DNA from: Paracoccaceae bacterium
GTDB taxonomy: Bacteria > Pseudomonadota > Alphaproteobacteria > Rhodobacterales > Rhodobacteraceae
Assembly (NCBI GenBank): GCA_020832705.1
Contig: JAFIEE010000020.1
Span: 1 to 32,868, forward strand
Length of the DNA: 32,868 bases
Direction: 5' to 3'
Positions 3,022-15,904 of the stretch are shown piece by piece. The notes under the pieces are model-generated. The model did not search any database and was not told the origin of the DNA. It was given only the letters and a program-made list of their open reading frames with translations. Every line of letters begins with the position of its first letter. The first letter of the stretch is position 1. A program made the position numbers and the translations under genes.

Positions 3022-4727
3022 CACGCCGCCAGATCGTCATCGGAGAGCGCATAGAGCGCGGCCTCACCCGCGCGTGCCTCGGCCAGCAGGCTGGCATGTT
3101 CCGGCAGGATGCGGGTGACGAAGACCGCCGCCAGCGCCCGGCGCGCGCCGTCCCCTTGCCGCGCGGCCTGCAGATGCACATGCGCGCCCAGCACGCGGGC
3201 AAAGGCGCGCAGATACGGCACGGCCCCGGCGTTGCGGGCGGGCGCGTCCTGCGCAACCAGCCATTCGGTGGCCTCGCGCAGGGTTTCGGCGGCCTCCCAC
3301 ACGGGGCCGGCCAGATCCGGCAGGGCGGCGCGGGCGGCCTCGGCCGCATCCTCGATTTCCTGCAGCAGGCGAAAGGCCGCTTCGCCCCCGTCCATCATCT
3401 TGCGGCCCACCAGATCCATGGCCTGAATGCCGTTGGTGCCCTCATAGATCGCGGTCACGCGCACGTCGCGCAGGTATTGCGCAGCACCCGTTTCCTCGAT
3501 GTAGCCCATGCCGCCATGGACCTGAACGCCCATGTTCGCGACCTCGATCCCCATGTCGGTGCCGTGCGCCTTGGTGATCGGGGTCAGCAGCGCGGCGCGG
3601 GCGGCGCAGTCCTCCGACCCGGTGGCGCGCGCCAGGTCGATGGCCACGGCGTTCATCAGGGCAATCCCGCGGATGGCGAAGACCTCGGCCTTCATGCGCG
3701 CGAGCATCCGGCGCACATCGGCGTGTTCGATAATGGCGCCGGTGCTGCTGAGCGGTGTGCGGCCCTGCCTGCGGTCCCGGGCAAAGGCCAGCGCGTGCTG
3801 ATAGGCCCCTTCGGCCGCGCCGATCCCCTGCACGCCGACACCCAGACGGGCGTTGTTCATCATGGTGAACATCGCCGCCATGCCCTTGTGCGGGGCCCCC
3901 ACCATCCAGCCGGTGGCGCCGTCATATTCCATCACCGCGGTGGGCGAGCCGTGCAGGCCCATCTTGTGCTCCAAGGACACCACCCGCAGGGCGTTGCGCG
4001 CGCCGGGGGTGCCATCGGCATCGGGGATCAGCTTGGGCACCATGAACAGGCTGATCCCCCGCGTCCCCGGCGCCCCGTCCGGCAGGCGGGCCAGCACCAG
4101 ATGGCACACGTTTTCGGAAAAGTCGTTGTCGCCCCAGGAGATATAGATCTTCTGCCCGGTGATGGCATAGGTGCCGTCGCCATTGGGTTCGGCGCGGGTG
4201 CGCAATGCGCCCACATCGCTGCCCGCCTGCGGCTCGGTCAGGTTCATGGTCCCGCACCATTCCCCCGCGATCAGCTTGGGCAGATAAAGCGCCTTGATCT
4301 CGTCGCTGGCGTGGTGTTCCAGCGCCTCGATCTGCCCTTGCGACATCAGCGGGTTCAGTTGCAGCGACAGACAGGCCGCTGACATCATGTCATTGACCGC
4401 CGTGGTCAACGCCATGGGCAGGCCCATGCCGCCATATTCCGGGTCAGCGGAAATGCCGGTCCAGCCGCCTTCGGCAATGGCGCGGAACCCTTCGGCAAAG
4501 CCGGGCGAGGTGCGGACCACCCCGTTCTCCAGCCGCGCCGGATGCAGGTCGCCGGGGCGTTGCAGAGGGGCCAGCACCTCCTCGCACAGCCGGCCGGCCT
4601 CGGTCAGGATGGCGCGGGCGGTCTCCGGTGTGGCCTCGGCGAACAGTTCGGTCGCCTGCACGCGGTCGAAGCCGACCACGTTTTCCAGCAGGAACTCGAA
4701 ATCCTTGATCGGGGCGGTAAACGGCAT
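3021..4727 (-). CDS. Acyl-CoA dehydrogenase, DmdC-like long form
   Basis: A 568-residue FAD-dependent acyl-CoA dehydrogenase that introduces a 2,3-double bond into an acyl-CoA. FAD and substrate motifs include MNLTEPQAGSDVGALRT (160-176) and ITGQKIYISWGDND (189-202). The catalytic base is Glu429 in AIYEGTNGIQAMDL. It is longer than ordinary dehydrogenases (about 380 aa): it has an extra N-terminal segment and a C-terminal helical domain, as in DmdC, the 3-methylmercaptopropionyl-CoA dehydrogenase, and relatives acting on various chain lengths. Substrate cannot be decided from sequence. The ATG at 4727 has AAGGA 7 bases upstream; a frame upstream stays open but lacks a ribosome site. It is divergent from the Sua5 gene and overlaps the MBL hydrolase gene by one base. 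Confidence 0.9.
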   Translation of the reverse strand: MPFTAPIKDFEFLLENVVGFDRVQATELFAEATPETARAILTEAGRLCEEVLAPLQRPGDLHPARLENGVVRTSPGFAEGFRAIAEGGWTGISADPEYGGMGLPMALTTAVNDMMSAACLSLQLNPLMSQGQIEALEHHASDEIKALYLPKLIAGEWCGTMNLTEPQAGSDVGALRTRAEPNGDGTYAITGQKIYISWGDNDFSENVCHLVLARLPDGAPGTRGISLFMVPKLIPDADGTPGARNALRVVSLEHKMGLHGSPTAVMEYDGATGWMVGAPHKGMAAMFTMMNNARLGVGVQGIGAAEGAYQHALAFARDRRQGRTPLSSTGAIIEHADVRRMLARMKAEVFAIRGIALMNAVAIDLARATGSEDCAARAALLTPITKAHGTDMGIEVANMGVQVHGGMGYIEETGAAQYLRDVRVTAIYEGTNGIQAMDLVGRKMMDGGEAAFRLLQEIEDAAEAARAALPDLAGPVWEAAETLREATEWLVAQDAPARNAGAVPYLRAFARVLGAHVHLQAARQGDGARRALAAVFVTRILPEHASLLAEARAGEAALYALSDDDLAA

Positions 4728-13188: not shown

Positions 13189-13561
13189 CGTGACAGCGCT
13201 GGCCGCCACGCTGGATGCCGAGCGCGATGCGCTGCTGGCGGGCGCGCTGGACCGGCTGGAACCGCTGAGCCGACGCAAGGAGCGCCTGCTGCAGGCGCTT
13301 GCGCACCGCGCCGACCCGCAACGCATTGATTCGCAACGCATGGACGAAATCCGGCGCGAGATCGCACCGCGGCTGGAGCGCAACCGCGCCCTGCTCGAGG
13401 CGGCAGGCGCGGGGCTGCGGGTGGCGCTGTCGGAACTGCGCCCCGGCCCGTCGGATACCATCGGCACCTATGGCGCCGATGGACGGCGGGTGCAGGAAGC
13501 GGACGCTGGTGCGGGCGCGCGCGGCGCGGCGGACGGCCCGCGGATGGAACGCCGGGCATGA
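13166..13561 (+). CDS. FlgN-like flagellar chaperone
   Basis: A 131-residue, mostly helical, charged protein. The segment LAATLDAERDALLAGALDRLEPLSRRKERLLQAL fits FlgN, the export chaperone for hook-filament junction proteins FlgK and FlgL, whose long N-terminal helices look like this. The C-terminal 30 residues are Gly/Ala/Arg-rich and poorly conserved. The ATG at 13166 has AAGGAGG six bases upstream and overlaps the rod-protein gene. Its place next to a rod-binding protein supports a flagellar role. The family match is by pattern and position, since FlgN sequences diverge strongly. Confidence 0.7.
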   Translation: MAWTLRNDVTALAATLDAERDALLAGALDRLEPLSRRKERLLQALAHRADPQRIDSQRMDEIRREIAPRLERNRALLEAAGAGLRVALSELRPGPSDTIGTYGADGRRVQEADAGAGARGAADGPRMERRA

Positions 13562-13623
13562 GCGCGGCTCCGTTAACCCTGTGATCGAAAACCCGGTCCG
13601 GGCCGCCTGCCCGGGCGTGCGGA

Positions 13624-13639
13624 TTAGGCATTGCTTAGG
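13624..13639 (+). promoter_or_regulatory. TTAG-N7-TTAG direct repeat upstream of flagellin, CtrA-box-like
   Basis: TTAGG at 13624-13628 and 13635-13639 repeats with an 11-base period, leaving TTAG-N7-TTAG. The spacing equals that of the CtrA consensus and of the repeat at 12730-12744 in the other flagellar control region. A separate GTTAAC, a consensus half-site, is at 13572-13577. No convincing sigma-28 or sigma-54 promoter was found in this 224-base gap. Confidence 0.42.
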
Positions 13640-13726
13640 GTTTCGTCGCCACAGTCACGTCCAGGCCCAGAACGGGAAACGCAGGCATCCGCAGGGGCGC
13701 CCCGCAAGCGCAGAACGCCACAAGAT

Positions 13727-13767
13727 GCCGCGAAAACGCGGCTTGGCCAACAGCGCCGGAACGGCGC
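13727..13767 (+). ncRNA. Two perfect hairpins in the flagellin mRNA leader
   Basis: GCCGCG-AAAA-CGCGGC occupies 13727-13742 and GCGCCG-GAA-CGGCGC occupies 13753-13767. Each has six perfect pairs and a short A-rich loop. The second ends nine bases before the ribosome site AGGAAC and 18 before the flagellin ATG. In Caulobacter, FlbT acts on the flagellin mRNA leader; flaF and flbT lie directly downstream here, so these hairpins are candidate targets. Labelled here as an RNA element, not as a separate transcript. Confidence 0.45.
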
Positions 13768-13785
13768 GTGCAAACAGGAACAGTC

Positions 13786-15030
13786 ATGTCCAGCATTCTG
13801 ACCAACACCAGCGCCATGGTGGCGCTGCAGACCATGCGCGGGATCAATACGAACCTCGCGCAGACGCAGAACGAGATCTCGACCGGGAAATCGGTCGCCA
13901 ACGCCCGCGACAATGCCGCAGTCTGGGCCGTATCCAAGACCATGGAAGCAGATGTGAAGGGCTTCTCGGCCATTTCCGACACGCTGGCGCTCGGACGCTC
14001 CACCATCGGTGTTGCACGTGCTGCGGCCGAAACCGTGACCGACCTGCTGACCGAAATGCAGGGCAAGATCGTCGCCGCACAGGAAGACAACGTCGACCGC
14101 GCCAAGATCCAGAATGATGTCGATGCCCTGAGCAAGCAGATTCAGGCAGTGGTTGGCGCCGCCCAGTTCAACGGCCTGAACCTGCTGAACGGCTCCAGCG
14201 CCGACGAAGTCAGCATCCTCTCCTCTCTCGATCGCGCTTCGGACGGTCAGGTCTCGACCAGCACCATCGATGTGGGCGCCCGCAATTTCGGTATCAATGC
14301 GTCGGTCGTGGACACGACGGACGGCACCTATGCAGCGGGCGGCGGCGCAGCTGCGCAAACGATCGATGGCGTCAATGCATCGCGCGACTTCACCATTGCC
14401 ACCGTGACCGCTGGAACGGCCTATTCGCTGTCCCTCGACTTCACGGGCATCGCGGGTGACGATGCTGGCGGCACTCTCGCCGCTTCAGGTGACATTGCCT
14501 ACGTCGCCGCTGCCGGCGACACGGCTGCGGATGTGTTGGCTGGCCTGGCGGCAGCATTCGAAGCCTGGGCCGGGGACAACGACGCCGGTGGCATCACCGT
14601 GGCGGCCTCAGGCAATGACCTCACGATTGAGCGCGCCGGCTTGGGAGTGGGCGAGACTATTGCAGTCGCAATCGACACGGTGGTCAGCGACGACAACCAG
14701 GCCGCAGGCGGCCTGTTTGCAATGGCCGGCATCGATGTCTCCACCGCAGAGGGCGCCGAATCCGCCCTGGACCAGATCGAGGGCCTGATCCAGTTCGCCA
14801 TCGGTGCGGCGGCAGATTTCGGTTCGGCCCAGGGACGGATCGACACGCAGGCCGAGTTCGTCCAGAACCTGACCGATGCGCTGACCACGGGTATCGGCGC
14901 GCTGGTGGATGCCGACATGGAGGCCGCCTCGGCCCGGTTGCAGGCGCTGCAGGTGCAGCAGCAGCTGGCCATCCAGTCGCTGTCCATCGCCAACCAGGCG
15001 CCGCAGAACATCCTCGCGCTGTTCCGCTGA
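13786..15030 (+). CDS. fliC: Flagellin
   Basis: A 414-residue filament subunit exported by the flagellar type III system. The N-terminal D0/D1 region (1 to about 165) has the standard pattern: NTSAMVALQTMRGINTNLAQ, ISTGKSVANARDNAAVWAVS and AQFNGLNLLNGS. The C-terminal D1/D0 (about 314-414) ends in LAIQSLSIANQAPQNILALFR. Between about 190 and 308 is an acidic, Gly/Ala/Asp-rich insert that would form the surface-exposed D2-type domain. The ATG at 13786 has AGGAA five bases upstream. It is somewhat less GC-rich than its neighbours, as is common for a highly expressed gene. The symbol follows general usage; some relatives call it flaA or fljK. Confidence 0.95.
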   Translation: MSSILTNTSAMVALQTMRGINTNLAQTQNEISTGKSVANARDNAAVWAVSKTMEADVKGFSAISDTLALGRSTIGVARAAAETVTDLLTEMQGKIVAAQEDNVDRAKIQNDVDALSKQIQAVVGAAQFNGLNLLNGSSADEVSILSSLDRASDGQVSTSTIDVGARNFGINASVVDTTDGTYAAGGGAAAQTIDGVNASRDFTIATVTAGTAYSLSLDFTGIAGDDAGGTLAASGDIAYVAAAGDTAADVLAGLAAAFEAWAGDNDAGGITVAASGNDLTIERAGLGVGETIAVAIDTVVSDDNQAAGGLFAMAGIDVSTAEGAESALDQIEGLIQFAIGAAADFGSAQGRIDTQAEFVQNLTDALTTGIGALVDADMEAASARLQALQVQQQLAIQSLSIANQAPQNILALFR

Positions 15031-15051
15031 TGACAGTGCATTGAGCACACC

Positions 15052-15076
15052 GGGCGGGGCCGGACCGGCCCCGCCC
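15052..15076 (+). terminator. Strong hairpin between flagellin and flaF
   Basis: GGGCGGGGCC (15052-15061) and GGCCCCGCCC (15067-15076) form a ten-pair all-GC stem around GGACC. It begins 22 bases after the flagellin stop and has no T-run, so it may be a partial terminator or a 3' stabiliser. Either would let flagellin mRNA exceed flaF-flbT mRNA. Confidence 0.6.
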
Positions 15077-15125
15077 ATCCTGCCCCCACCCGGACTGCAC
15101 GCCCACCCAGAAAACGAGGTCGAGG

Positions 15126-15503
15126 ATGAACGCCCTTCTGCAGGCCCGCACCGCCTATCGCGTGGCGGAGGATGCCACACGCACCCCGCGCGATGCCGAA
15201 TACCAGGCCTTTGCCCGCGCCACCCGCGCACTGACCGCCGCCGCCCGCACCGGCACGACAGCGCCGGGCAAGCTGGCCGACGCGCTGACCCTGAATCGCC
15301 GCCTGTGGATGGTTCTGGCCGCCGATCTGGCGACCGAAGGCAACCAGTTGCCCGAGGCGCTGCGCATCGGCCTGCTGGGGCTGGCGCAATTCGTGCTGAA
15401 CCACTCCGACGGCGTGCTGAACGGCACGGCCGACATTTCGGCGCTGATCGATGTGAACACCGCCGTCATGCGCGGGCTGCGCGGTGAGGATGGCGCGCCA
15501 TGA
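15126..15503 (+). CDS. flaF: Flagellar biosynthesis regulator FlaF
   Basis: A 125-residue cytoplasmic protein of the FlaF family, required for flagellin production in alphaproteobacteria and acting together with FlbT. Family features are the N-terminal tyrosine segment ARTAYRVAEDATRTPRDAEYQAFARATRAL, NRRLWMVLAADLA, then the helical LPEALRIGLLGLAQFVLNHS. Length is typical. The ATG at 15126 is preceded by GAGGTCGAGG. Its TGA overlaps the flbT ATG (ATGA), so the two are translated together. Confidence 0.93.
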   Translation: MNALLQARTAYRVAEDATRTPRDAEYQAFARATRALTAAARTGTTAPGKLADALTLNRRLWMVLAADLATEGNQLPEALRIGLLGLAQFVLNHSDGVLNGTADISALIDVNTAVMRGLRGEDGAP

Positions 15504-15904
15504 GCGGGCTGGTGATCAAGCTGGCCCCGCAGGAGCGGTTGCTGATCAACGGCGCCGTGATCGAAAACGGCGAACGCCGGTCGCGGCTGGCGATCCTCAC
15601 GCCCAACACCAAGGTGCTGCGGCTGCGCGATGCCATCCGCCCCGATGCCGCGAACACCCCGGTGCGCCGCGTCTGCTACCTGGCCCAACTGGTGCTTTCC
15701 GGTGATGCCGAGGCCGAGGACCTGCGCGCCCATCTGCTGCGCGGGATCGAACAGCTCAGCCAGGTCTTCACCGACCCCGACAGTCGCGCGCTGCTGCACA
15801 CCGCCACCGAAGGGGTGCTTGGCGCCGAGCCCTACATGACGTTGCGCGCCCTGCGCGCGCTGCTCCCGCGCGAGGCGCGCCTGCTGGCCGCGCGCCCGTC
15901 ATGA
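15500..15904 (+). CDS. flbT: Flagellin mRNA regulator FlbT
   Basis: A 134-residue post-transcriptional regulator. In Caulobacter FlbT associates with the flagellin transcript leader and promotes its decay when hook assembly is incomplete. Visible family segments are LAPQERLLINGAVIENGERRSRLAI, KVLRLRDAI, PVRRVCYLAQLVLSGD and the C-terminal LGAEPYMTLRALRALLPREA. The start overlaps flaF by four bases and the stop overlaps the DUF1217 gene by four. Its likely target here is the structured flagellin leader at 13727-13767 (inference). Confidence 0.94.
   Translation: MSGLVIKLAPQERLLINGAVIENGERRSRLAILTPNTKVLRLRDAIRPDAANTPVRRVCYLAQLVLSGDAEAEDLRAHLLRGIEQLSQVFTDPDSRALLHTATEGVLGAEPYMTLRALRALLPREARLLAARPS

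Follow-up and report, generated by a model that had tools for sequence, protein, structure and literature searches.

The flagellin gene of the window (the whole stretch of 32,868 nucleotides of Paracoccaceae DNA that was analysed) is preceded by a region, at positions 13664-13788 of the forward strand, that very likely gives the flagellin mRNA a conserved and structured 5' leader. Comparison of this leader with its relatives points to a docking platform for FlbT, a reading that we regard as probable. Small hairpins with a common loop and closing pair, C-ARAA(N)-G, are enriched on the sense strand of flagellin leaders in FlbT-encoding Alphaproteobacteria beyond the window's family, which is a new observation. 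The motif is concrete, it occurs in many alphaproteobacterial families and it often sits on the ribosome site, so the mechanism of FlbT becomes open to point-mutation tests.

Anatomy of the leader and its probable promoter

All the features described here lie on the forward strand. The last two of five small hairpins predicted in front of the flagellin gene (P1-P5), namely P4 (GCCGCG-AAAA-CGCGGC, 13727-13742) and P5 (GCGCCG-GAA-CGGCGC, 13753-13767), are perfect 6-bp hairpins, and the sequence-only reading that first drew attention to this region had them exactly, in tandem and with AAAA and GAA loops. It had also rightly set the second one close to the ribosome site, as the AGGA of a probable Shine-Dalgarno sequence (AGGAA, 13776-13780) begins eight bases after P5. 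The leader ends at the flagellin ATG (13786), the identity of the flagellin gene (13786-15030) being given by Pfam (PF00669, PF00700). The two genes expected downstream were found there, flaF at 15126-15503 (PF07309) and flbT at 15500-15904 (PF07378, 128.1 bits, match at 15509-15886). In the upstream half of the leader, a motif scan placed P1 at 13666-13676 (CCC-AGAAC-GGG, an ARAA(N) loop with C-G closure), and P3, around CAGAACG at 13708-13718, is the most conserved element of the leader. The P2 region (13681-13705) contains a helix that covaries and is well formed in the family but poorly formed in the window, where the alignment to the covariance model R2 (see below) shows several non-pairs.

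Two perfect hairpins (stem of at least 6, loop of 3-5) appeared within the 66 bases 13720-13785 in 0.065% of 20,000 dinucleotide shuffles; elsewhere in the window, a pair of such hairpins in a 59-base stretch recurs only at 4370-4451. The folding energy is unremarkable, with z values of -1.10 (13720-13800), -0.41 (13660-13800) and +0.42 (13640-13815), and the case for the structure of the leader is therefore comparative, not thermodynamic. These energies would suit hairpins that arose by chance in G+C-rich sequence; against this stand their rarity in shuffles and the covariation presented below, which refutes it, and we find such an origin scarcely credible. The minimum-energy fold of 13660-13800 retains P5, with P4 giving way to long-range pairing. 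This is a GGCAUC/GAUGCC pairing across P2-P4 (13684-13729) that, by eye, is not retained in the genus alignment and could be either a switch or an artefact of the model.

Upstream of the leader, a CtrA-like box of the form TTAG-N7-TTAG (13624-13638) is the probable site of the promoter's activator, and its sequence suggests CtrA. Both half-sites are invariant in the window and four members of its genus, and TTA[AG]-N7-TTA[AG] is present between -200 and -135 in 92 of 150 family leaders against 0.9 in shuffles. In Rhodobacter sphaeroides, CtrA sites lie near -35 (PMC6180460), and by analogy with those promoters the putative start zone (13655-13668) would be placed about 35 bases 3' of the left half-site, with transcription beginning near 13660. 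Judged only from this box, the start would not lie downstream of 13742, in keeping with the sequence-only reading. In Phaeobacter inhibens, mutants of the CtrA phosphorelay showed a 64-fold lower expression of fliC (PMC11974857).

Covariation and loop conservation in the family

The flagellin leaders came from relatives and from 80 named loci, whose labels were almost all Rhodobacteraceae or a genus belonging to it. Dropping identical leaders left 152 distinct ones of 155, of which 131 had flbT downstream in the locus and 130 were long enough to score. Of these 130 flbT-linked leaders, 115 carry CAGAANG between -100 and -50 (shuffles give 2.2), and hairpins with 5 or more pairs occupy the P5 zone in 108 (37.0 in shuffles) and the P4 zone in 98 (46.9 in shuffles).

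Covariation was measured in two alignments. The first comprised 35 leaders, hand-picked for alignability and aligned by sequence without structure, with the five-hairpin structure drawn on one leader; its score was 0.239, which none of 500 shuffles reached (their score being 0.134), and sliding the structure along gave 0.067-0.131. The second, of 94 leaders aligned to the model, gave 0.381 against 0.161, bearing in mind that a model alignment leans toward its structure. Changes on both sides were seen in the latter at 24 of 26 pairs, all five helices included. Helices 4 and 5 are paired in 85.3% and 85.0% of cells, respectively, and in each of them every one of the 5 pairs shows changes on both sides; helix 1 also covaries, as the weakest of the five (67.9% of cells paired). 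At the genus level (window and four members) P4 and P5 vary with compensation, the CGCAGAA of P3 and the AGGA at 13776-13779 are invariant, and the AGAA loop of P1 stands between runs of C and G in four of the five sequences, G003 having AGCA. The compensatory changes in relatives on which the sequence-only reading staked its hairpins are thus present in the 35-leader, the 94-leader and the genus alignments.

A closer look at the loops separates the hairpins. The loop of P3 with its closing pair reads CAGAA(N)G in 88 of the 94 leaders and the loop of P5 contains RAA in 85, whereas the loop of P4 has 87 distinct readings and is not conserved; that of P1 has 82. Given conserved loops in P3 and P5 and a variable one in P4, it is P3 and P5 that carry the information, and P4 is, from these alignments, probably a spacer or clamp and not a target. 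The earlier picture of a structured flagellin leader forming a module with FlbT is consequently kept as regards the leader, its compensatory changes and a plausible link to FlbT, and altered in that the hairpins are five, not two. The interval that it proposed as the RNA target (13727-13785) holds one conserved loop, that of P5; the P4 loop in it is variable and the most conserved element, P3, lies upstream of it.

Reach of the covariance models

Of 295 family genomes, the covariance model R1 matched 206 at E 0.01 and 182 at 1e-5. The 24 genomes with a best E between these values possibly include chance matches, because matches away from flagellin genes reach 25.2 bits; 89 genomes, including that of the window, had none at E 0.01. 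All of the 30 best R1 loci, which were chosen by the RNA and not by the flagellin, end at a flagellin start codon. R1 gave 94 matches in 100 loci fetched for their flagellins, 93 of them ending at a flagellin start codon and one being a partial match inside a leader. A lenient search (E up to 1) yielded 28 loci, 13 ending at the flagellin start and 15 without a flagellin, the latter scoring at most 25.2 bits.

On the leader of the window R1 gave 10.0 bits, level with a chance place, and its best match in the window's own genome lies elsewhere (12.5 bits); the window's own locus (L002), one of the 100 above, did not reach E 0.05. With 10.0 bits only and its own genome missed at E 0.01, R1 was dropped as proof for the window leader. 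Within the genus, where 150 of thousands of candidates per genome were scored, the flagellin leader was the best R1 match in G001 only and not in G002, G003 or G004. A direct search of L003 gave 20.3 bits, and in the window's nearest relative the leader is the best R1 match of that genome (E 0.0084).

A second model, R2, was built from the 94 leaders found by R1 with the window excluded and a close relative (L035) in the training set. In a search of the window, R2 places the leader at 13664-13788 as its top match (24.5 bits, E 1.4e-5), followed by a chance match at 473-577 (15.0 bits). Given the 25.2 bits reached by R1 matches off flagellin genes, the 24.5 bits count for the place of the leader in the window and not as a blind whole-genome match. 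With R2, a search of 48 further loci, among them some that had served to train R1, yielded 38 matches at E 0.1.

Across the class, R1 matched 20 of 289 genomes, three of them of the window's own family, and with the window's flagellin as query, a search that may overlook distant flagellins, 2 of the 20 class loci end at a flagellin start. A spread of the leader beyond the family was not retained as a conclusion, the remaining matches outside it being weak and probably due to chance. Neither the window nor 31 loci of other families contained a known RNA family at gathering score, and raising E to 5 brought only weak matches; the five-hairpin leader would be a cis-regulatory RNA not found in Rfam 15. 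The name of the flg-Rhizobiales RNA (RF01736; PMC2864571) likewise points to flagellar genes of an alphaproteobacterial order; this family matched neither the whole window at gathering score nor 13400-15200 with E allowed up to 5, and none of the loci searched contained it.

Two genomes of the R1 searches stand apart. G058 carries a match of 52.4 bits (L210, 1501-1626) between a flgN-like gene and a downstream MFS-type gene, as read from the translations, with no match for flagellin or FlbT in the genome; this leader without a flagellin is probably a relic. G137 has six R1 matches in one search and seven (at E of at most 0.01) in another, on four contigs, and the three of them covered as loci (L168, L195 and L209) end at a flagellin start.

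C-ARAA(N)-G hairpins in other families

The motif, a hairpin closed by C-G with a loop ARAA or ARAAN, was first noticed by eye, before any count was made. Where a 4-base and a 5-base reading overlap at one site, both enter the count, in real and shuffled sequences alike. In a first set from other families, FlbT-encoding genomes (28) showed 37 motifs in 24 of 50 leaders (4.15 motifs in shuffles) and genomes without FlbT (29) showed 3 motifs in 3 of 30 leaders (1.9 motifs and 1.7 leaders in shuffles). The Fisher p between both groups is 5e-4 for stems of at least 2 pairs, 0.03 for 3 and 0.007 for 4. The genomes without FlbT that carry the motif are G397, G404 and G100, the last of which shares its genus with the FlbT-encoding G455.

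Because the motif had been chosen partly on the first set, fresh genomes were tested, comprising 60 FlbT loci outside the definition of the motif; 43 of them held 70 flagellins with a start and 17 held none. The motif is present in 44 of these 70 leaders (5.9 on average in 200 shuffle runs, 15 at most), with 74 motifs against 6.44 expected, numbers to be read with many of the fresh genomes belonging to families already in the first set, FlbT presence confounded with phylogeny and shared ancestry left in by the shuffles. The background in random 123-base stretches from the fresh loci is 4.9%, and the strict motif is missing from 26 of the 70 fresh and 26 of the 50 first-set FlbT-encoding leaders.

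An open count of 5-base loops (stems of at least 4 pairs) in the 120 leaders with FlbT led to the same loop class: the seven commonest are all ARAAN, AAAAT alone occurring 18 times against 0.8 expected, and C-G closes 66 of 96 ARAAN loops. The Shine-Dalgarno sequence in other families is often inside an ARAA(N) hairpin (e.g. CCAGAANGGA), and AGAA..GG at the ribosome site is present in 50 of 120 leaders with FlbT against 1 of 30 without. In G359, whose flagellin is the nearest to FljK in the sample (60% identical, with an approximate FljK query), the leaders of L254 and L256 have ARAA(N) hairpins and that of L255 does not. As for the window, P1 and P3 have the strict form, and shuffling the window leader yields two strict motifs in 2.6% of runs; the AAAA and GAA loops of P4 and P5, closed by G-C, fall outside it.

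Perfect inverted repeats in an upstream region could also be palindromic sites for transcription factors, acting in DNA and not as RNA structure. However, the motif was counted 111 times in sense and 6 in antisense in other families (154 and 5 in the window's family), so the signal lies in RNA and not in a DNA palindrome. The elements are, moreover, 3' of the putative start, and DNA sites are in our view very improbable.

When any closing pair is allowed (stem of at least 3, loops of 4-6), loops starting with ARAA number 171 against 42.5 expected in the 120 leaders with FlbT, and a small excess is also seen without it (12 against 5.0 in 19 leaders with CsrA, 6 against 3.1 in 11 with neither protein). 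This excess would be consistent with another reader that shares the distribution of FlbT, either a small RNA or an RNA-binding protein such as Hfq, a candidate for A-rich loops; the ARAA loops are short A-rich single strands. Such a reader is distinctly improbable in view of the prevailing C-G closure, the location of the sites at flagellin starts and the strict motif being near shuffle level in leaders without FlbT.

FlbT, CsrA and the proposed reader of the loops

Among 116 class genomes with a flagellin, FlbT is found in 62, CsrA in 34, both in 1 and neither in 21, a near-exclusion with a Fisher p of 1e-13, uncorrected for ancestry. The window's own genome, in an assembly that is 87% complete, gave no match for CsrA (PF02599). 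Loops of the type A(N)GG[AT] number 26 against 8.2 expected in 19 leaders with CsrA, 12 against 4.5 in 11 with neither protein and 70 against 42.3 in 120 with FlbT; as the excess is also present without CsrA, a CsrA-specific loop is only a hint. We suggest tentatively, with belief falling slightly short of doubt, that C-ARAA(N)-G is the recognition code of FlbT across Alphaproteobacteria and that FlbT replaces CsrA in flagellin control, the code being distributed over five hairpins in the window's family and on the ribosome site elsewhere, with AGG[AT]-type loops perhaps going with CsrA. Our confidence in this was lowered because AGG[AT]-type loops are in excess with neither protein as well. 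If true, one flagellin regulator (CsrA) would have been swapped for another with a different loop code.

The fold of FlbT was predicted with a pLDDT of 92.5 for the whole protein, and residues 1-54 predicted alone form five strands. A CsrA fold, suggested by a CsrA-like N-terminal sequence and strand order, is not supported: the best Foldseek E values are 0.63 (residues 1-54) and 0.94 (whole FlbT), the best VIA-align Z for residues 1-54 is 3.5, and CsrA is not among the 50 matches listed in each structural search. A profile comparison (hhalign) of FlbT with 30 CsrA sequences did not detect relatedness (probability 0.6%). The C-terminal helices were also considered as a FliS-like flagellin chaperone and this was rejected, FliS ranking 35 (Z 6.7) among many unrelated helical bundles. 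Among the matches listed, the predicted structure of FlbT has no clear match to a known fold, RNA-binding folds included.

A predicted fold with no clear match hinting at RNA binding would be in line with a leader that works without FlbT as its ligand, its hairpins guarding an abundant mRNA from 5'-end decay or tuning ribosome loading structurally, and five covarying hairpins near the putative 5' end suit such protection. A mere clamp, however, needs no specific loop, whereas P3 and P5 have conserved loops and P4 has not, and the same loop class marks FlbT-encoding genomes in other families; we consider this explanation unlikely while granting it some weight. From the sequence comparisons, FlbT is the likely reader of the leader loops, and the loops of P1, P3 and P5, together with the ARAA(N) loops elsewhere, are likely to be its docking sites.

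Proposed mechanism and relation to known systems

In the mechanism proposed for FlbT, CtrA would turn on transcription near 13660 and the leader would fold into its hairpins, as the covariation in relatives suggests. FlbT, encoded 1.7 kb downstream, would bind, at P1, P3 and P5, either the C-ARAA(N)-G loops or the related AAA/GAA ones. Placed eight bases 5' of the ribosome site, it would hold back translation or pass the mRNA to decay until flagellin export, and FlaF would oppose it, both by extension from Caulobacter. In several other families, a hairpin with the ribosome site inside (CCAGAANGGA) would allow direct blocking.

In Caulobacter, FlbT acts on the 5' region of flagellin mRNA promoting its decay (PMC4347634), or blocking its translation (PMC3930126), and is reported to work with the flagellin FljJ (PMC7591256). 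In Brucella, FlbT is an activator (PMC4347634; PMC8781033; PMC9812332), and FlaF/FlbT have been regarded as possibly analogous to CsrA-FliW (PMC4894983). The available text of a 2015 review treats the mechanism of FlbT as unresolved and gives no binding sequence (PMC4347634). The FlbT-controlled leaders of C. crescentus (Anderson and Gober 2000; Ardissone et al. 2020; via PMC4347634, PMC3930126, PMC7591256, PMC9812332) share with the present one the nearby flaF and flbT and, as proposed here, the 5' untranslated region of a flagellin mRNA as the site of FlbT action and a feedback of flagellin via secretion. They differ in having RpoN-dependent promoters and a special flagellin, FljJ, as co-repressor, in contrast to the CtrA-like box and five-hairpin leader of the window. 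On flagellin mRNAs such as C. jejuni flaA, the CsrA/RsmA hairpins are likewise small, with a fixed loop pattern by the ribosome site and a flagellin-tied regulator, but their loop is GGA and not ARAA(N), the window's own genome has no CsrA match and FlbT is not detectably related to CsrA. No prior description of the leader or of the motif was found in the literature searched; one may be in print, as most subscription papers were outside its scope.

Two further elements were seen between the flagellin gene and flaF. A very strong G+C hairpin with no T run, GGGCGGGGCCGGACCGGCCCCGCCC (15052-15076), lies directly 3' of the flagellin stop and before flaF, and may serve in trimming or stabilising the 3' end of the flagellin mRNA. 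Just 5' of the flaF start, CCCAGAAAACGAGG (15106-15119) is an AGAA-type stretch by the ribosome site that departs from the strict motif; flaF-flbT could perhaps be under the same control as flagellin.
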